This document shows positions 4,945 to 13,332 of a DNA stretch of 37,723 nt, piece by piece. Position numbers and translations under genes: made by a program. The DNA is from Candidatus Bathyarchaeota archaeon (GTDB taxonomy: Archaea; Thermoproteota; Bathyarchaeia; Bathyarchaeales; Bathycorpusculaceae). The stretch lies in contig JAOAIV010000002.1 of the NCBI GenBank assembly GCA_026414525.1, forward strand, positions 1-37,723, in the 5' to 3' direction. Each line of letters starts with the position of its first letter. Within the stretch, counting starts at the first letter, position 1. The notes beneath the pieces were generated by a model. It had not been told where the DNA came from. It worked only from the letters and a program-made list of their open reading frames with translations, and ran no database searches.

Positions 4945-5037
4945 GAAGCTATATTACTTGTGGAATTCTTTTAAATCTATAGCTGCATTTTTTAACTCAA
5001 AAATCAGAGAATTACACTATTGAGTAGGTGTAACGTA

Positions 5038-5445
5038 ATGTCTGACTCATGCGTCTTCTGTAAGATAGTGCGTAAAGAAGCGCCGGCAAGCGTAGTCTAC
5101 GAGGATGAGTTTGTAATAGCATTTATGAGCATACAACCCGTAAATATCGGGCACACGCTTGTCGTTCCGAAGAAACATTACGCAAACCTCTTCGAGATTC
5201 CAGAAGAGGAACATGTTTACCTATACAAAATTGTTAAAAAAATAGCCCACGCCGTGCGAGAAGCTATGTCGGCAGCAGGCATCCGAATTGTGCAGAATAA
5301 TGGCGCCGCGGCGGGTCAAGTAATTTTTCATCTTCATGTGCACGTTATTCCCGTGAATACGCCGGGTTCTTTTATGCGGTATCCAGAATTGCGTGATGCG
5401 CAGGCGCTGGCACAAGATGCAGCACGAATAAAAAGGTTTGTTTAA
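5038..5445 (+). CDS. HIT family protein
   Basis: CVFCKIV start and histidine triad HLHVHVIP; ATG at 5038 likely. Confidence 0.93.
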   Translation: MSDSCVFCKIVRKEAPASVVYEDEFVIAFMSIQPVNIGHTLVVPKKHYANLFEIPEEEHVYLYKIVKKIAHAVREAMSAAGIRIVQNNGAAAGQVIFHLHVHVIPVNTPGSFMRYPELRDAQALAQDAARIKRFV

Positions 5446-5602
5446 AGCTGCTGTCTTGAAGGCTCTCTGAACTAGTGCTTACTAGCAGGTGATTGATGGT
5501 TAGTTTACAGAACGCCTCAAATGCAAAATCTATGTTATGTGTAAGGAACACATATAAAAGGAAGAAATACAAAATGGTAACCTGCGTAAAAGCGGGAAAA
5601 AT

Positions 5603-5938
5603 ATGAGTGAAGAACCTGACAAAAATGGCGTTACACAACCAAAGAAGCTTTTGATTGATGACGCCACGAATTTCCAGTTCCATGCCGCTTATTCGGTTTA
5701 TTCAGAGCTATTTGATGGAGCAGCAGATGTTACAGTTAAGGCTGACTTGAATCAGAACATTGAGGCACTTAAAGAGGGACGGATAGACTGCGAGACATTT
5801 TATCGAAATATCGCGCATTATCGTAACCTTCCTCCCAATCTGCCAAGTCCTAATAAGATTACATTTGAAACGCAGCGGAAGCGAGACTGGCGAATTAAAA
5901 CTCAAAGGCAAGAGCGGATTCGAAGACACAAAAAATAG
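5603..5938 (+). CDS. Hypothetical protein (111 aa)
   Basis: Stand-alone open frame with ATG and charged C-terminus; no family recognised. Confidence 0.5.
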   Translation: MSEEPDKNGVTQPKKLLIDDATNFQFHAAYSVYSELFDGAADVTVKADLNQNIEALKEGRIDCETFYRNIAHYRNLPPNLPSPNKITFETQRKRDWRIKTQRQERIRRHKK

Positions 5939-6062
5939 CGCGGGAACGCTGTTCATCTCGATGGCGATTCTGCTTAGTTTAAACTTGTATAAACAATACA
6001 TACGGAAGCCTTATTTAACATTGGTTCTTTTTTGCTTGTTTTAAAAAAAGGTTGCAGTTTAC

Positions 6063-6800
6063 ATGAAAACATTGCATGTGGCGATGACTGGTGTTAGCGC
6101 TGCACTTTACGCAGTAGTTGGAATTTTAACAAACATGGGGATAGTAAGCCCCGCCGTGGGCGTAGTCAGATTCTGGCCGGCGGTTATAGTTCCCGCAATC
6201 TTCGCGGTGCTTTTTGGTCCATGGGTTGGAGGAGCAAGTGCCGCCATAGGAATCTTCATAAGCGACATGATCCAGCCTGGCCACGGAATCGCCCTCTTAA
6301 GCCTCACGGTTGGCGTCCCATCAAATTTTGCAGGCTTCTATCTTATCGGTTTACTTTCAAGGAAAAAAATGAACATGCGCTACATCATTCTTGCATTGGC
6401 TGTGGGTAGTGCGGTGCTAACAGGATTGATTGGCTACCTCTTTATGATTGAAGTGTTAACTGTGGACTTGGCAGCTCTGTTTCTTGGTGTTCTCTTCATC
6501 AGCGTTGCATTGGTAATAGTCGTCGGATTATGGAAGCCAGAGTGGAAAAATTACGGTTTAGCAGCCGTTGTCGGTCTCCTCGTGGGCAGCGCCATCATAG
6601 GCGTCGGCCTCTGGGCGTATAGTCAATTCTTGCCTTTGCCTTTGACTGGTTTTGAACGCAACGCACCAGCGTTCGCAATTTTCCTCTGGCTCGTTTGGAC
6701 TTTCGCAACTGAAATTCCTTTCCTTGTGACAATTGTTCCGCCGATTGTGAAAGTATGCTACAGAGCTTTCCCATCATTAGCGGCGCCACATGAAAAGTGA
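6063..6800 (+). CDS. ECF-type transporter S component-like membrane protein
   Basis: Hydrophobic multi-TM protein with the FGPWVGGASAAIGIFISDMIQPGHG pattern typical of ECF S components; 12 nt before pantoate kinase. Confidence 0.7.
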   Translation: MKTLHVAMTGVSAALYAVVGILTNMGIVSPAVGVVRFWPAVIVPAIFAVLFGPWVGGASAAIGIFISDMIQPGHGIALLSLTVGVPSNFAGFYLIGLLSRKKMNMRYIILALAVGSAVLTGLIGYLFMIEVLTVDLAALFLGVLFISVALVIVVGLWKPEWKNYGLAAVVGLLVGSAIIGVGLWAYSQFLPLPLTGFERNAPAFAIFLWLVWTFATEIPFLVTIVPPIVKVCYRAFPSLAAPHEK

Positions 6801-6812
6801 GAGGATGCACTA

Positions 6813-7754
6813 TTGCCTAAAGCAAGCGCCTTTAGCCCCGCCGGCATCTCCAGCTTTTTTGAAATCTGCGACAGAACAGCAGACGGAGCGCCCATAGAGT
6901 ATTTAGAGAAGGTAGGCGCGAGGGGCGGCGGCTTCGGCATCCAGAAGGGCGTTTTCACCGAGGTCACAGTTTCCGAGGCAAAGGCAAACAACATCCGCGT
7001 TCTAATTAATGGCGTCAGCGCGCCAGAAGCAGAAACCTCAAAAACTGTCGCTGAGATGCTACTTCGCAGAAGTGGCAGATTTTACTATGTTACCATAAAC
7101 CACAAGGTTGATGTTCCCATAGGCGCGGGTTTTGGCTCTAGCGCAGCCGGCGCTTTAACCACGGCTATGGCGCTGGCGAAGGCTTTGGAGCTACCGCTTA
7201 CTTACAATCAAATCGGCAAAATCGCGCATGCCGCTGAAGTGCAGTGCCGAACTGGCTTGGGCACTGTTGGCCCGTTAATGCTTGGCGGCTGCATTCTCAC
7301 GGTCGAGCCTGGCGCGCCTGGAATCAGCGTAATCGACCGTATTCCTCTAAGCGATGAGTACGTGATTGTTGCCGGCGTTTTAGGTGCCATATCCACAAGG
7401 CAGGTTCTTGCGTCGGCTGAGAAGCGGCGTGAAGTTAACCTTTGGGGTAGAAAGACGCTAGAGGAGATTTTAGCTGAACCCTCCGTTGAGAACTTCTTGG
7501 CGTGCTGTTTGCGCTTCGCGGAGAAAGCTGGTTTTATGACGCCGCGCGTTAAGCGATTGGTGCAGTTGGCGGAGAAGGCTGGCGCCATCGGCGTTGCGCA
7601 GAACATGGTTGGCGAAGCAGTTCACGCGCTTACACATGAGGAAAATGCGGTGGAAATAGCAGAAGCTTTTAAGCAAGTTTTGCCCAACGAGAACATCCTC
7701 GTAGCCAAAATCGACTTCCAAGGCGCTAGGCTGGTAAGGCATGAAACGGTTTAG
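6813..7754 (+). CDS. Pantoate kinase (GHMP superfamily, archaeal CoA biosynthesis)
   Basis: SPAGISSFFEICD start, GHMP motif PIGAGFGSSAAGALTTAMAL; overlaps the PPAT gene. Confidence 0.88.
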   Translation: MPKASAFSPAGISSFFEICDRTADGAPIEYLEKVGARGGGFGIQKGVFTEVTVSEAKANNIRVLINGVSAPEAETSKTVAEMLLRRSGRFYYVTINHKVDVPIGAGFGSSAAGALTTAMALAKALELPLTYNQIGKIAHAAEVQCRTGLGTVGPLMLGGCILTVEPGAPGISVIDRIPLSDEYVIVAGVLGAISTRQVLASAEKRREVNLWGRKTLEEILAEPSVENFLACCLRFAEKAGFMTPRVKRLVQLAEKAGAIGVAQNMVGEAVHALTHEENAVEIAEAFKQVLPNENILVAKIDFQGARLVRHETV

Positions 7755-8220
7755 GAAAGTGGCGGTAGGCGGAACCTTCGACGAGTTACATAAAGGGCAC
7801 AAAGTGCTGCTCATGAAAGCATTCGAAGTCGGCAATCGCGTACTGATAGGCTTATGCACTGATGAGTTTGTGAAGAAAATGGGGAAGCCTCATGTAACCG
7901 CTTCGTACGAGGAACGATTAAGGGAACTACAAGTTTTTCTTAAGGCACATGGGCTAATTGACAGAGCAGAAATTATTCCGCTAAACGACCCTTACGGTAA
8001 CACTTTAACTGACAGGTACATAGAAGCGCTTGTTGTAAGCGAAGAAACAGAAAAGACCGCCATCAAAATTAACCAGAAAAGGAGCGAGGTTGGACTGCCG
8101 CCGCTTGAGATAATTACGATACACATGATCCCCGCGGAAAACTTCAAGCCCATTTCTACGACAAGAATTCGCCAAGGCGAAATTGACCGAGAAGGGCGCT
8201 TGCTAAAGAAAGCCGCATGA
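7741..8220 (+). CDS. coaD: Archaeal phosphopantetheine adenylyltransferase (PPAT)
   Basis: VAVGGTFDELHKGHKVLL nucleotidyltransferase motif and ISTTRIRQGEID; 14-nt overlap with pantoate kinase. Confidence 0.92.
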   Translation: MKRFRKVAVGGTFDELHKGHKVLLMKAFEVGNRVLIGLCTDEFVKKMGKPHVTASYEERLRELQVFLKAHGLIDRAEIIPLNDPYGNTLTDRYIEALVVSEETEKTAIKINQKRSEVGLPPLEIITIHMIPAENFKPISTTRIRQGEIDREGRLLKKAA

Positions 8221-8244
8221 ATTGCCCACTTAAAATTGGGGGTT

Positions 8245-9174
8245 TTAGATAATTTCACCTATTATTTTTGTTGGTTTCTGAATAGTCGCTGTTAGATCGT
8301 CAACTTTTTCCCGGTTCAATGTAACAAGCACGACTGTGGCGGGTCCAGCAGACTTGTTTAGGTCTATGTCGCCTGTTTCTGCGAGTTTTAATTGTCGCCC
8401 AACGCCGTGCGCAAGCACTCTCGCCGCGTAGCCTATGCCAAAGGTGCCTACGGGGATAACGTCATGAACAAAGCTTTTCTGGGAAAGCTGTATTACACTT
8501 TTGAGGTCTGCGATTTCGCCTTTAACTTCTGCGGGTATGACTTCGGCGCCAACTTTGGGCTTACCAACAGCTACTATCACGTCGCCTGGATGAGTCTTAC
8601 CTAGCCTAAGCTCCTCTTCGTTTGCAAATCCGATCACGGTTACGCCAGCGCCTGTTTGCGCAGTTTCAAAGTTGTCCTCAGTATTCTCCATCAGAACCTG
8701 GTTTGGATCAAGCCCGAGGACTCTGGATTCGCCTCTTATGCCTTCAATAATTTCGCGGCCAGTCGGCTCTTTCTCCACGCCAAGTGTGGCTGAAATGAGT
8801 AGCGGGTACGCTCCTGTGGCGGCAACATCCATCAGCGCTACCCTCGCGAGAAACTTGCCGAGAACATAGCCTTTAACCTTCACATGATCCAGCTTTTTCG
8901 GACCAACACTGCCTGAGGATGTAGAGCCCACCACAATGGCGTGCCCAGTTGGCACCTTCAAAATTGCCACGTCGCCTCTGCGCGTATACTCTATCTGCGC
9001 GGGCTTAACTTGGAAGGCTAACGGCCTCAGCATAACCCCAATGTTTTCCACAAGATGTAGATAAATTGTCAGAGCCTGCCTAATTATCTCCGATCTGCTA
9101 AGGCCGTGGCTTTTCGCTAGTTTGTCTATGTCCACCGCTATTTTTTCTGACAATCGAACATTCACGATTTCCAT
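8245..9174 (-). CDS. RHH (CopG/NikR-like) DNA-binding domain fused to PurM/AIR synthase-like domain
   Basis: N-terminus MEIVNVRLSEKIAVDIDKLAKSHGLSRSEIIRQALTIYLHL is a canonical RHH; residues ~65-309 are alignable by eye to the 9845 ORF (VVGSTSSGSVGPKKLDHVKVKGYVLGKFLARVALMDV vs VVGCDSSGGVGPKPLDKIKVDGFTLGKFIARVALMEV). Confidence 0.9.
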   Translation of the reverse strand: MEIVNVRLSEKIAVDIDKLAKSHGLSRSEIIRQALTIYLHLVENIGVMLRPLAFQVKPAQIEYTRRGDVAILKVPTGHAIVVGSTSSGSVGPKKLDHVKVKGYVLGKFLARVALMDVAATGAYPLLISATLGVEKEPTGREIIEGIRGESRVLGLDPNQVLMENTEDNFETAQTGAGVTVIGFANEEELRLGKTHPGDVIVAVGKPKVGAEVIPAEVKGEIADLKSVIQLSQKSFVHDVIPVGTFGIGYAARVLAHGVGRQLKLAETGDIDLNKSAGPATVVLVTLNREKVDDLTATIQKPTKIIGEII

Positions 9175-9187
9175 ACAGAAACCCCCG

Positions 9188-9207
9188 TGTATTACAAATG
9201 TAATACA
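9188..9207. promoter_or_regulatory. Candidate operator: perfect 20-bp inverted repeat TGTATTACA-AA-TGTAATACA
   Basis: 9-nt arms exactly complementary; each arm is itself a TGTA-w-TACA palindrome, 11-bp spacing; lies in the divergent intergenic region 14 nt upstream of the RHH-fusion start codon. Confidence 0.75.
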
Positions 9208-9265
9208 AATGGAAATGCTTTTATGAGTTTTCCTGTGGCCCTTTCAGAAAAAGAGAGGAGAAAAC

Positions 9266-9775
9266 ATGAGCGAAAAAGCAAATGCAAACGAAGCAATAAA
9301 GGCCTCGGCAAGCTGGATCATTGCGCGCATAGCCATTTTCTCCGCGCTAACAGTTGTCGGCTCCTTCATAAAAACTCCCAGCCCGATCCCCACAGTTGCC
9401 TTCGATTCAAGCCCCGGCTTCTTCGCGGCTCTTTACTTTGGCGTACTAGACGGCGCATTAGTTTGCGGCATCGGCCACATAGCCACATCAGTCATCAGCG
9501 GTTTCCCGCTGGGCATCTTACATCTTCCAATAGCACTGGGCATGACTGTAGCAGGCGCCGCCATCGGCTTCGTAAATAAACTAAACAAGAAATGGGGCTT
9601 CATTCCTGGCCTAATCGTTGGAGTAGCCATTAACACGGCGCTAGTGGTTTTGGCGGTGCCAGTTATAACATGGGCTGGAGCGATTGCCTTTGCACCTCTG
9701 CTACTTTTAGGTGCAGCGCTAAACGCTATCGTCGCTGCTATCGTGTACGTGGCTTTGCGAGGTAGGCTTCGTTGA
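9266..9775 (+). CDS. ECF transporter S component (CblT-like, substrate inferred)
   Basis: 169 aa multi-TM; KTPSPIPTVAFDSSPGFFAALYFGVLDGALVCGIGHIATSVISGFPLG; preceded by GAGAGGAGAAAAC ribosome-binding site. Confidence 0.82.
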   Translation: MSEKANANEAIKASASWIIARIAIFSALTVVGSFIKTPSPIPTVAFDSSPGFFAALYFGVLDGALVCGIGHIATSVISGFPLGILHLPIALGMTVAGAAIGFVNKLNKKWGFIPGLIVGVAINTALVVLAVPVITWAGAIAFAPLLLLGAALNAIVAAIVYVALRGRLR

Positions 9776-10537
9776 ACCGGTTCCCTGTCCCTGCTGTCAA
9801 CAAACAGGGATGTCCTCATTTTTCAATTTGACAATGGCACCGTCATGGTTGTTGGCTGCGACTCGTCAGGCGGAGTAGGCCCAAAGCCTCTTGATAAAAT
9901 CAAAGTAGATGGATTCACTCTTGGGAAATTCATAGCTCGCGTCGCTTTAATGGAAGTTCTAGCCGTTGGCGCGGCGCCTGCATGCATCGTTGACACCCTC
10001 TGCGTAGAGCCGGAGCCGCTGGGCGCCGAAATTTTGCGAGGCGTCCGTGCTGAAGCAGAAAAGGTGGGATTAGATCCGCGGCTGGCAGTAACCGGTAGCG
10101 CAGAGAAAAATTTTCAGGTTGAGCAAACAGGTATGGGCATAACCGTGATAGGCATATGCCGACGGGACGAGATGAAAATTGGGGTTTCTAGGTCAGGAGA
10201 TGTTGTCGCTGCTGTTGGTATCCCCTGCGTGGGCTACGAGGTTATTTCCGCAGAGAATATGCAACTTATCGCTAATGCAGAGGATATTTTGAGGCTTCGA
10301 GAAACAGCTTTTGTTCACGAGATACTCCCTGTAGGGTCAAGAGGCATAGCCTATGAAGTTAACGTCTTAGCTAAAGATTCCAGACTACGCTTCAAGTTGG
10401 CTGATAAAGTCACGGTTGACCTGAAAAAATCCGCTGGCCCGGGAACGGTTGTTCTTGCCAGCCTCGAAGCGTCCAAATTTGAAGAGCTCAAGGCTGTTGT
10501 TAACAAACCAGCTAATATTGTTGCGCATTTACTCTAA
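9772..10537 (+). CDS. Stand-alone PurM/AIR synthase-like protein (CblS-like candidate kinase), frame-disrupted near its 5' end
   Basis: Track ORF starts at 9845, but similarity to the paralog extends upstream (NRDVLIFQFDNGTV~MVVGCDSSGG). TTG at 9772 overlaps the upstream TGA and has GAGGT 8 nt upstream. Removing one G of GGG at 9807-9809 joins the frames (766-1 nt = 255 codons). Confidence 0.8.
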
Positions 10538-10580
10538 CGTAGACACGGCTTGAGTAGCGTTGGATGCCTAACTTCGTGTG

Positions 10581-11138
10581 TTAAATTAGTAAATGTTCTA
10601 GTAGTATTTTGATGCCAATTGCTATTAGAACGCCGCCGCCTACAATCTGTATTTTGTTTTTAAAAAAATTCCCAAGTTTGCTGCCAAAGCAAAAGCCTCC
10701 GAAAGATAATAGGAAGGTAACAATGCCAATTACAATCACGGGAATAACTATTGCCACTTGCAGCAGGGAAAAACTTAGACCAACCGCTAAAGCGTCAATG
10801 CTTGTCGCAACTGAAAGAATCAAAAGCGTAGCTGCCGTCAGCTTGCCACCCTTCTTTTCCTCACCGTCAGCTTTTGCGGAGTATATCATTTTTCCTCCAA
10901 CGAAGGCTAAAAGCCCAAAAGCCAGCCAATGGTCAAAATTGCCGATTACCTCTATCAGGCTTAAGCCTGCCAGCCAACCCAGCATGGGCATAAACGTCTG
11001 AAATGCGCCAAAAGAACTAGCCAACGCTAATCCTGTTTTGGCTCTGCGTTCCCTGTATGTCATGCCGTGCGCAATTGACACTGCAAACGCGTCGGTTGCA
11101 AGCCCAAGCGCAATTAAGAGTATAGTCGCAGCGTCCAC
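10581..11138 (-). CDS. mntP: Manganese efflux pump MntP
   Basis: ATDAFAVSIAHGM and ATSIDALAVGLSF repeated motifs with 6 TM segments. Confidence 0.93.
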   Translation of the reverse strand: MDAATILLIALGLATDAFAVSIAHGMTYRERRAKTGLALASSFGAFQTFMPMLGWLAGLSLIEVIGNFDHWLAFGLLAFVGGKMIYSAKADGEEKKGGKLTAATLLILSVATSIDALAVGLSFSLLQVAIVIPVIVIGIVTFLLSFGGFCFGSKLGNFFKNKIQIVGGGVLIAIGIKILLEHLLI

Positions 11139-11286
11139 TCTGCATCTGCCCGTTTTATGGCTTATTGGCAGTAAACCGTTAAACCTTAAAGGCTTTCGGT
11201 TTCATTCACCGAAGTTTCTTGAAAAAGGTAATATTTCAAGAAAAGCAAAAGACAATTCAGCGGAGAAATCAGTGGAGAAAGAACGT

Positions 11287-12042
11287 TTGAAGCTGAGTCT
11301 ATCCAATGGCATTTTCGCGCATTTGCCTTTAGCTGAGAACATTGTCGCTGTCCAAAAGCTTGGCTTCGAAAACTTAGAGTTTAACATGAAAAGCGTGGAA
11401 AAAGAGAATGATGATTCAGTTTACGTTGCGGAAAAACTTATCAAAATGCATGGACTGAGATGCTTAACGGTTCACGCCGCCTGCCTGCACGTTAAGGAAG
11501 AAAATGAAATCTCTAAGGCTGTTTATTACGGAAAAGTTTCTGCTGATTTCGCGCATCAGCTTTCAGCGCCTGTGCTCGTTGTTCACTCAGATATCAATAG
11601 GCGATTACCCAGCGACTTGAGAAAAAAGTTTCTAACAAGAATCTTCAGCGAGCTGAAGTCTTATGCGGAGAAGTTACGCCTTAAGTTGGCGTTGGAGAAC
11701 CTTTCTTACGCGTCAACAGGTTACGGTAAAAACGTTGATGAACTTGAAGAGGCCATATCCACAATAGGCAATGCCAATTTGGGAGTAACTCTTGATTTTT
11801 GCCATGCCGAAGCAACTGGGCAGACCCTGCGTCTGCTTAACAAATATTATGAGCGCTTGTGCAATGTTCACATAAGCAACCGTGCACACACACCCTTCAA
11901 GGAGGAAACATCGAACCTAAAGGCATTTCTCAGTAAGCTTAAGGATTACGGGTATGATGGTCCGCTTACCGTTGAGCTTAATAGAAAATGCTCGATGGAA
12001 GAAATCCAGCAAACAAAGACTGTGCTTCAAAAGCTGATTTAA
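11287..12042 (+). CDS. Sugar phosphate isomerase/epimerase-like TIM barrel (AP endonuclease 2 family)
   Basis: LKLSLSNGIFAHLPLAENIVAVQKLGFENLEF...LALENLSY...VTLDFCHAEATG...VHISNR; TTG 11287 with GGAG upstream. The track extension to 11038 runs antisense into mntP. Confidence 0.8.
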   Translation: MKLSLSNGIFAHLPLAENIVAVQKLGFENLEFNMKSVEKENDDSVYVAEKLIKMHGLRCLTVHAACLHVKEENEISKAVYYGKVSADFAHQLSAPVLVVHSDINRRLPSDLRKKFLTRIFSELKSYAEKLRLKLALENLSYASTGYGKNVDELEEAISTIGNANLGVTLDFCHAEATGQTLRLLNKYYERLCNVHISNRAHTPFKEETSNLKAFLSKLKDYGYDGPLTVELNRKCSMEEIQQTKTVLQKLI

Positions 12043-12068
12043 TAAGTGCAACCGCTTATTTTTAAGCC

Positions 12069-12293
12069 ATGAAACTTACAATCATAATTGCGGGAGAACT
12101 TATTCTGCTAATAGCTTCAGTGTTTGTTTTCAGAAGCCTCTGGACATTGCTCGACCAATACTTTGAGCAAACACACCTTTGGCTAATGCTAATAATAGGC
12201 TTAATCTTAACGGTGATAGCTTTGCTAATAGTGAATTACGAAGTCAAATGCGAACTAAACAGAAAAGAACAGGCTGCGGAATCAAAAAAATAG
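12069..12293 (+). CDS. Small membrane protein (74 aa)
   Basis: Two predicted TM helices, charged C-terminus. Confidence 0.5.
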   Translation: MKLTIIIAGELILLIASVFVFRSLWTLLDQYFEQTHLWLMLIIGLILTVIALLIVNYEVKCELNRKEQAAESKK

Positions 12294-12394
12294 CAAGTAA
12301 AGCAAAAGCAGATTCCAAATAGACCTAGGCTACGCTGCTTGCAGCACCTTGATATTAGCTACTGCACGTTCAATGTATTTGTTACCAAAATAGG

Positions 12395-12479
12395 CGCGGG
12401 GTGCGGGATTTGAACCCGCGCGGCCTTTTGGGCCACAGACTTAGCAGGCCTGCCCCCTACCAGGCTAGGGCAACCCCGC
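12395..12479 (-). tRNA. tRNA-Ser(GCU)
   Basis: Acceptor GCGGGGT/ACCCCGC; anticodon stem-loop CAGGC-CTGCTAA-GTCTG; long variable arm; T-loop GGTTCAAATCC; CCA not encoded. Confidence 0.95.
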
Positions 12480-12759
12480 CACATTTTCTCCATCATGCCA
12501 TGCTCCTTTTTTAGTTTTGCACATTTTTATTTATTGCCTTTCTGTTCACGTTTTTCAAGATGACTTATTTCCAAGTGGTGGCTATTCAATAGATCATGCG
12601 CTTGCATATTTGTCGCATATTAGAAATTCATTGCAGAAACCTTTAGAGGGTGGGTCTACAAGCAACCAGCGCCAGTCACTTTCAAGAAAACAAAAATTAT
12701 TGTTAACAGGAAAACTTTTATGCTTTAAATTAAGCTATAAGCTATGGAGATGTAATCTA

Positions 12760-13332
12760 ATGGATTTTAAAGGAAGTAGAACCGAACGTAATCTGTTGGC
12801 GGCTTTCGCCGGCGAATCGCAGGCTAGAACTCGCTACACCTTCTTCGCCAGTGTCGCTAAAAAGGAAGGGTATGAGCAGATTGCTGCTATTTTCCAAGAA
12901 ACCGCTGACAATGAGAAGGAGCATGCAGAATTGTTCTTCAAACATTTGAAGGGTGGGATTGTTGAGATTCAAGCTGCCTATCCGGCTGGAGTAATTGGTT
13001 CCACGGAGGAAAATTTGAAGGCCGCGGCTGAAGGTGAGAAAATGGAGTGGGGAACGCTTTACCCTAATTTCGCCGATGTCGCTGAGCAAGAGGGCTTCAG
13101 CGATGTGGCTCTTACTTTCCGCATGGTTGCCAAGGTGGAGGCCTATCACGAACGCAGATACCTGAAATTGCTGGAAAACCTGAAGCAAGGCAAAGTATTC
13201 CGTAAAGACATTTCAATAAAATGGAAATGCAGAAACTGCGGATTCGTCTATGAAGGCATTGAAGCACCTGAAAAATGCCCCGTATGCAGTCATCCGAGAG
13301 GCTACTTTGAAGTCTGGTGTGAAAACTACTAA
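12760..13332 (+). CDS. Rubrerythrin
   Basis: MDFKGSRTERNLLAAFAGESQARTRYTFFA...DNEKEHAELFF with C-terminal rubredoxin-like CRNCGFVYEG...CPVCSHPRGYF. Confidence 0.95.
   Translation: MDFKGSRTERNLLAAFAGESQARTRYTFFASVAKKEGYEQIAAIFQETADNEKEHAELFFKHLKGGIVEIQAAYPAGVIGSTEENLKAAAEGEKMEWGTLYPNFADVAEQEGFSDVALTFRMVAKVEAYHERRYLKLLENLKQGKVFRKDISIKWKCRNCGFVYEGIEAPEKCPVCSHPRGYFEVWCENY

Follow-up and report, generated by a model that had tools for sequence, protein, structure and literature searches.

A ribbon-helix-helix protein with a CblS-like domain as a candidate regulator of cobamide lower-ligand genes in Bathyarchaeia

What is the function of a protein that joins a ribbon-helix-helix (RHH) DNA-binding domain to an AIRS/PurM-fold domain closely resembling an enzyme-like protein encoded next to it? 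The question is raised by a stretch of 37,723 nucleotides (contig JAOAIV010000002.1; hereafter the window) from a Bathyarchaeia metagenome-assembled genome (MAG) of 1.27 Mb, 85% complete, where the gene of such a fusion is divergent from those of an ECF S component and of a stand-alone AIRS protein (Table 1). We put a probability of roughly three in four (0.77) on the fusion being a CblS-derived RHH transcription factor that controls cobamide lower-ligand genes via a 20-bp palindrome; its DNA binding, its ligand and the direction of control are what we infer here.

Table 1. Features of the locus, in coordinates of the window
Feature	Position	Strand	Details
RHH + AIRS/PurM-fold fusion gene	8245-9174	minus	309-aa ORF, ATG start
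RHH DNA-binding domain, fusion residues 1-43	9045-9174	minus	Pfam RHH_1, residues 4-39, E 6e-8
AIRS/PurM-fold CblS-like domain (probable sensor), fusion residues ~65-309	8245-8982	minus	Pfam AIRS, residues 68-154, E 7e-7
Candidate palindromic operator TGTATTACAAATGTAATACA, common to both divergent promoters	9188-9207		near-perfect inverted repeat
BRE (GGAAAT) and TATA (CTTTTATG) of the S component-CblS operon	9211-9225	plus	TATA at +12 after operator end
CblT-like ECF S component (predicted alpha-ribazole transporter subunit)	9266-9775	plus	PF12822, E 2e-11
CblS-like alpha-ribazole kinase (predicted), stand-alone	9776-10537	plus	32% identity to Listeria CblS; expected start TTG 9772

The fusion protein, its relatives and its neighbours

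The fused architecture, first proposed in a sequence-only reading of the locus, is borne out by the open reading frame and its Pfam matches, and the C-terminal part does closely resemble the stand-alone protein of the window, with 47% identity over fusion residues 66-308. In the RHH part, N5, R7, R27-S28-E29 and R32 are invariant across 32 orthologues. The AF2 model of the fusion (mean pLDDT 76) matched SelD (selenophosphate synthetase), ThiL, HypE and PurL with probability 1.00 in a fold search, and on these matches the modelled fold of the putative sensor domain is PurM/AIRS; the loops modelled with low confidence, 89-98 and 159-174, probably contain parts of the active site. Sequence searches of the PDB with the fusion, a stand-alone profile and a fusion profile gave no confident match for the AIRS part. 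The only curated cut-offs passed by the fusion, the S component and the stand-alone protein of the window were those of RHH_1, AIRS and ECF_trnsprt, while those of ThiL (17.6 of 184 bits), SelD (14.9-20.4 of 125), HypE and PurM were missed, and the likeness to these four families is one of fold only. In pairwise comparison, Listeria CblS is 35% identical to the fusion over 230 aa (E 7e-33) and 32% identical to the stand-alone paralog over 222 aa (E 1e-31). The earlier suggestion of a PurM-like, CblS-related enzyme domain thus stood as regards the fold and the homology to Listeria CblS; membership of the ThiL or SelD families, also considered then, did not emerge.

The Listeria homologue of the stand-alone AIRS protein was found in two plasmid-collection records, in one of which it lies directly upstream of cobU-cobS-cobC, a slot that we take to be the position of CblS (lin1110 in L. 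innocua). The window S component resembles that of a Cytobacillus cob cluster (40% over 67 aa) and weakly matches a Listeria S component located beside cobyrinate a,c-diamide synthase (cbiA) and cbiB. The S component and AIRS genes sit side by side among cob genes both in Cytobacillus and on a plasmid of L. plantarum, and the archaeal pair neighbours CobD, CbiB, CbiZ or CobS; when a genome collection was scanned with the alignment of stand-alone proteins, the relatives found were mainly from Bathyarchaeota and Firmicutes. The Listeria pair was reportedly characterized biochemically as an alpha-ribazole kinase and a transporter. CblS is named alpha-ribazole kinase and CblT its transporter in PMC6461909. 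The Listeria homology and the cobamide-gene context in archaea and Firmicutes support the earlier assignment of the stand-alone protein as CblS-like and of the S component as CblT-like: the L. innocua proteins are homologous to these two and likewise form an adjacent pair in cob clusters. The fusion differs from Listeria CblS in having an additional N-terminal RHH domain and in lacking the invariant Asp29 and Arg11 (see below), and it is predicted to be a regulator rather than a kinase.

The stand-alone gene had been read as a single open frame over 9772-10537. This does not hold: over that interval the frame of 9772 contains 18 stops, whereas the frame that encodes AIRS can be read without a stop from 9776. 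Its first ATG, GTG or TTG occurs only at 9845, too late for a start, since a protein begun there would lack the R-D residues that are invariant in the family. Among the relatives checked, most have a start codon that overlaps the stop of the S component as ATGA or TTGA; the equivalent here is TTG 9772. This start position in relatives indicates that a one-base frameshift lies ahead of the invariant Arg-Asp in the window copy, between 9776 and about 9806, to be ascribed either to an error of MAG assembly or to a recent lesion.

Of the 257 genomes of the class, 36 encode an orthologue of the fusion (that of G095 is truncated by the end of its contig) and about 19 a stand-alone paralog. A 31%-identical fusion is encoded in G355, a genome of another class, where it is also divergent from a CblT-like S component and a palindrome, CGTAACACATTTGTGTCACG, is located close to the fusion start. 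Because of the 36 orthologues and this distant relative, the RHH-AIRS fusion is not a product of chance. Its divergent arrangement, the conservation of which the sequence-only reading had put at stake, recurs in seven further genomes of the class (G051, G048, G210, G101, G072, G073 and G077), where, as in the window, the fusion is directly divergent from S component and paralog, and in similar form in G355. A survey of the architecture together with cobamide genes, also proposed then, showed that CobS is carried by 35 of the 36 fusion genomes versus 52 of 221 others (p 4e-18, related genomes being counted separately) and that CobT is also present in 33 of the 36, so that the regulator occurs chiefly in genomes that could both make the lower ligand and salvage it. 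The genome set is dominated by MAGs. Since related genomes are not independent, p values overstate the evidence. The idea that CblS simply replaces CobT was tried and set aside: stand-alone CblS was found in 5 of 13 genomes with CobS and no CobT and in 12 of 74 genomes with both, a difference (p 0.12) that is suggestive only.

Two other parts of the window deserve mention. At 6063-8220 the genes of an archaeal pantoate kinase and of phosphopantetheine adenylyltransferase (PPAT) come after that of an ECF S component, which may import a CoA precursor; this trio is convergent with the fusion in about 17 loci. At 11038-12042, near the CblS-like gene, there is a TIM-barrel (AP_endonuc_2) gene with a sub-threshold match (29.9 bits against a cut-off of 105) to CbiR, a cobamide-remodelling phosphodiesterase.

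A shared palindrome and the genes that it marks

The 20-bp palindrome TGTATTACNNNNGTAATACA is conserved upstream of fusion orthologues and, in trans, of target genes. Its matrix and pattern were derived from the fusion upstream regions; the matrix matches 27 of 32 fusion promoters, the other five being without a good site at the standard place. In G128, G130 and G132 the S component-CblS operon is separate from the fusion and has its own copy of the operator, and no operator was found at the loci examined that contain stand-alone CblS without a fusion. In a class-wide pattern scan, exact sites away from the fusion gene were present in 13 of 36 fusion genomes versus 8 of 221 others (p 9e-8, with related genomes again counted separately). 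Operator-like matches in genomes lacking the fusion (e.g., G067, G114, G140, G247 and G253) were rejected: they lie near unrelated genes, at about the rate of a reversed-pattern control.

A second ECF S component, d0, which has no similarity to the CblT-like S component detectable by BLASTP, is preceded by the operator at 22 of 22 loci, the site being located before d0 itself or before a CobT-d0 operon (four of the 22 loci; CobT was identified by TIGR00303, 394 bits against a cut-off of 240). The fusion is present in 21 of the 22 d0 genomes, and the remaining genome is 82% complete. In the window's own genome the operator was not found at CobT. In four g5 genomes, which are without d0 (G082, G090, G102 and G108), the operator precedes an operon of a Zn-dehydrogenase and a TrpD-like phosphoribosyltransferase; we counted this placement against the cobamide explanation, and the operon may encode a further, undescribed route of lower-ligand ribosylation. 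With targets at CblT-CblS, d0, CobT-d0 and dehydrogenase operons, nearly every fusion genome has an identifiable target. The operator and its regulon in trans, newly described here with DNA binding as a prediction, support control of cobamide lower-ligand genes through the sites at CblT-CblS, CobT-d0 and d0. An Rfam scan of 5000-13000 of the window returned only a tRNA and no known riboswitch that could explain the promoter.

Several further observations were made at individual sites. In the four genomes without d0, the sites before the Zn-alcohol dehydrogenase and TrpD-like operon are at L102:4927, L107:4720, L112:4734 and L236:4113. A radical-SAM-like gene adjoins the operator in G095 (L230:4139) and G098 (L233:4413), and d0 (L103:5984-6972) is commonly followed by d1, for which no family was found, and d3, a PRC-barrel protein. 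Two operator-like palindromes, at L116:4634 and 5682, lie beside a small RHH-like gene in the fusion-less G247 and probably belong to an unrelated RHH operator.

Promoter geometry and the direction of control

If the fusion binds the palindrome, as predicted, the consequences should depend on where the site lies in each promoter. Target promoters have a BRE-like GAAA after the operator and, beyond it, CTTTTAT, which nearly always stands exactly at +12 (+10 in the dehydrogenase (ADH) set). At divergent loci a single TATA element serves both genes and the geometry there is not independent, CATAAAAG, on the opposite strand of 9211-9225, being the probable TATA of the fusion gene; the same geometry is, however, found in 26 non-divergent target promoters, which is beyond explanation by a shared fusion TATA. 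In the fusion promoter ATAAAAG lies upstream, the operator is located between this TATA and the start codon, about 10 nt further on, and it covers the predicted start site. A repressor-type position is seen only here, at the fusion's own promoter.

For TrmBL1 it was shown that transcription is repressed from sites downstream of TATA and activated from sites upstream of BRE (PMC4706686), and the upstream-activation pattern was also described for TK0271 (PMC6737238) and CopR (PMC7830388). Because the operator positions relative to TATA and BRE match this rule, we lean, by this analogy, towards autorepression combined with activation of targets over repression of targets. Bound over the start site, the fusion would repress its own gene; bound just upstream of BRE/TATA, it would activate genes for acquisition and activation of the lower ligand, that is, CblT-CblS here and CobT and the second ECF S component in relatives. 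The sequence-only reading had the fusion repress the S component and kinase operon, a direction that the operator position, linked to activation in archaea, does not support.

The most serious competitor keeps the regulator and its regulon and makes the fusion a classical repressor of its targets, with binding next to BRE blocking TFB/TBP and the ligand altering affinity. The operator does abut BRE and could occlude TFB, it takes a repressor position at the fusion's own promoter, and regulators of the RbkR and ThiR types are described as repressors. The nearly invariant +12 spacing across unrelated target genes is harder to reconcile with simple occlusion, and all three archaeal examples given above link sites that immediately precede BRE to activation; we regard target repression as a possibility to be taken seriously, albeit a lesser one.

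A distance of 11 bp, or about one turn of the helix, separates the half-sites of the operator, and two RHH dimers are expected at half-sites so spaced. Since AIRS proteins are dimers and the half-sites are spaced for two RHH dimers, a tetramer of the fusion is plausible.

The enzyme-like domain, its ligand and known regulators

In a tree of 120 sequences, built by a quick ML method with no outgroup, the AIRS domains of the fusions form a single clade (SH-aLRT 97) inside the CblS-like tree, beside archaeal stand-alone proteins. Three residues, R11, D29 and E60, are invariant among 88 CblS-like proteins (88/88) and all are kept by the stand-alone protein of the window. In 32 fusions the same columns contain G in place of R11 (31/32), T or S in place of D29 (32/32; Thr85 in the window fusion) and D in place of E60 (31/32), and because these invariant residues are replaced we do not class the fusion as CblS. 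The Asp-to-Thr change recurs in the 31%-identical fusion of the other class, and a profile comparison places D29 opposite an Asp that is invariant in another AIRS family. (Cluster c12, considered as ThiL, proved to be a mixed AIRS set on alignment and was used for profile comparison only.) The fusions keep the fold residues and retain the equivalents of D12, E110 and K218, and elsewhere they are strongly conserved (80% mean column identity), which speaks against decay of the domain. On the aligned residues, the main active-site loss would be that of D29 and R11, the change of E60 to D being conservative. Because an Asp29 found in 88 of 88 CblS-like proteins is Thr or Ser in every fusion, the domain is probably a sensor and no longer a catalytic kinase, although the conservative replacement of E60 would be compatible with residual ATP binding or activity.

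A bifunctional protein, at once a regulator and an active alpha-ribazole kinase, would agree with the retention of most conserved residues, including the D12, E110 and K218 equivalents and the acidic residue at E60, and with the many fusion genomes in which no stand-alone CblS was detected; it is nevertheless unlikely, given the disappearance of the otherwise invariant Asp29 and Arg11 from essentially all fusions and the presence of a separate CblS of intact type in 13 fusion genomes.

For a sensor derived in this way, the simplest ligand is alpha-ribazole or alpha-ribazole-5'-phosphate, which we consider the probable one because the alpha-ribazole moiety is what the targets serve to make or import, and because the sensor domain is derived from a protein like alpha-ribazole kinase; the domain would bind one of these compounds and couple its level to DNA binding. 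More tentatively, the degenerate alpha-ribazole kinase might serve as the ligand domain of a dual-mode factor that senses the lower-ligand nucleoside and balances CobT against import by CblT-CblS or the second S component. A ligand from another cofactor pathway (thiamine, the main alternative of the sequence-only reading, or CoA), with an incidental cobamide context, could be argued from the PurM-like nature of ThiL, the roughly 17 loci at which the fusion is convergent with pantoate kinase-PPAT, and a ThiT-like S component near the fusion in three genomes, but it is very improbable in view of the operator sites at CblT-CblS and CobT, the lack of thiamine genes among operator-bearing targets and of a strong site at CoA genes among the scanned loci, the nesting of the AIRS domain in the CblS-like tree, its score far below the ThiL cut-off, and the near-perfect co-occurrence with CobS.

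The alpha-ribazole-sensing fusion proposed here has parallels in known regulators. RbkR consists of an HTH domain and a CTP-dependent riboflavin kinase, and ThiR of an HTH domain and ThiN. In both, as predicted for the fusion, a DNA-binding domain is combined with a domain resembling a cofactor enzyme and controls archaeal genes of the pathway of that cofactor: here a single ORF contains RHH_1 and AIRS, and the operator is found at CblT-CblS, CobT and d0. The fusion does not belong to the RbkR or ThiR families proper, since it has RHH and not HTH, and PurM/AIRS and not riboflavin kinase or ThiN; it also differs from them in its regulon, the cobamide lower ligand, and in a likely dual mode set by operator position. 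NikR, an RHH and ACT-domain nickel regulator with a palindromic operator, likewise has an N-terminal RHH and a C-terminal ligand domain, but the ligand domain of the fusion is a degenerate kinase-like AIRS domain and the sensor parts are without homology. The proposal that the locus encodes an enzyme-derived regulator is on the whole supported by the architecture, the clade and the operator at pathway genes. Another transcriptional regulon for archaeal cobalamin genes, the predicted 'CblrR' of Pyrococcus, is described with its transcription factor listed as unknown in PMC10746257, where both RbkR and ThiR are named. A search of the open-access literature found neither an RHH-AIRS regulator nor an archaeal alpha-ribazole regulator.

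For the most part, archaeal cobamide genes have no assigned regulator. For Bathyarchaeia there is now a candidate protein, together with an exact operator sequence, a small set of target genes and a likely ligand, and each of these is open to testing in vitro with no need to grow the host. The predicted CblT-CblS salvage route is extended to archaea, and the combination of RHH with a kinase-like domain joins the few enzyme-derived regulators of archaeal vitamin pathways. If the more tentative dual-mode reading is true, this archaeal regulator would read the lower ligand and not the whole cobamide.
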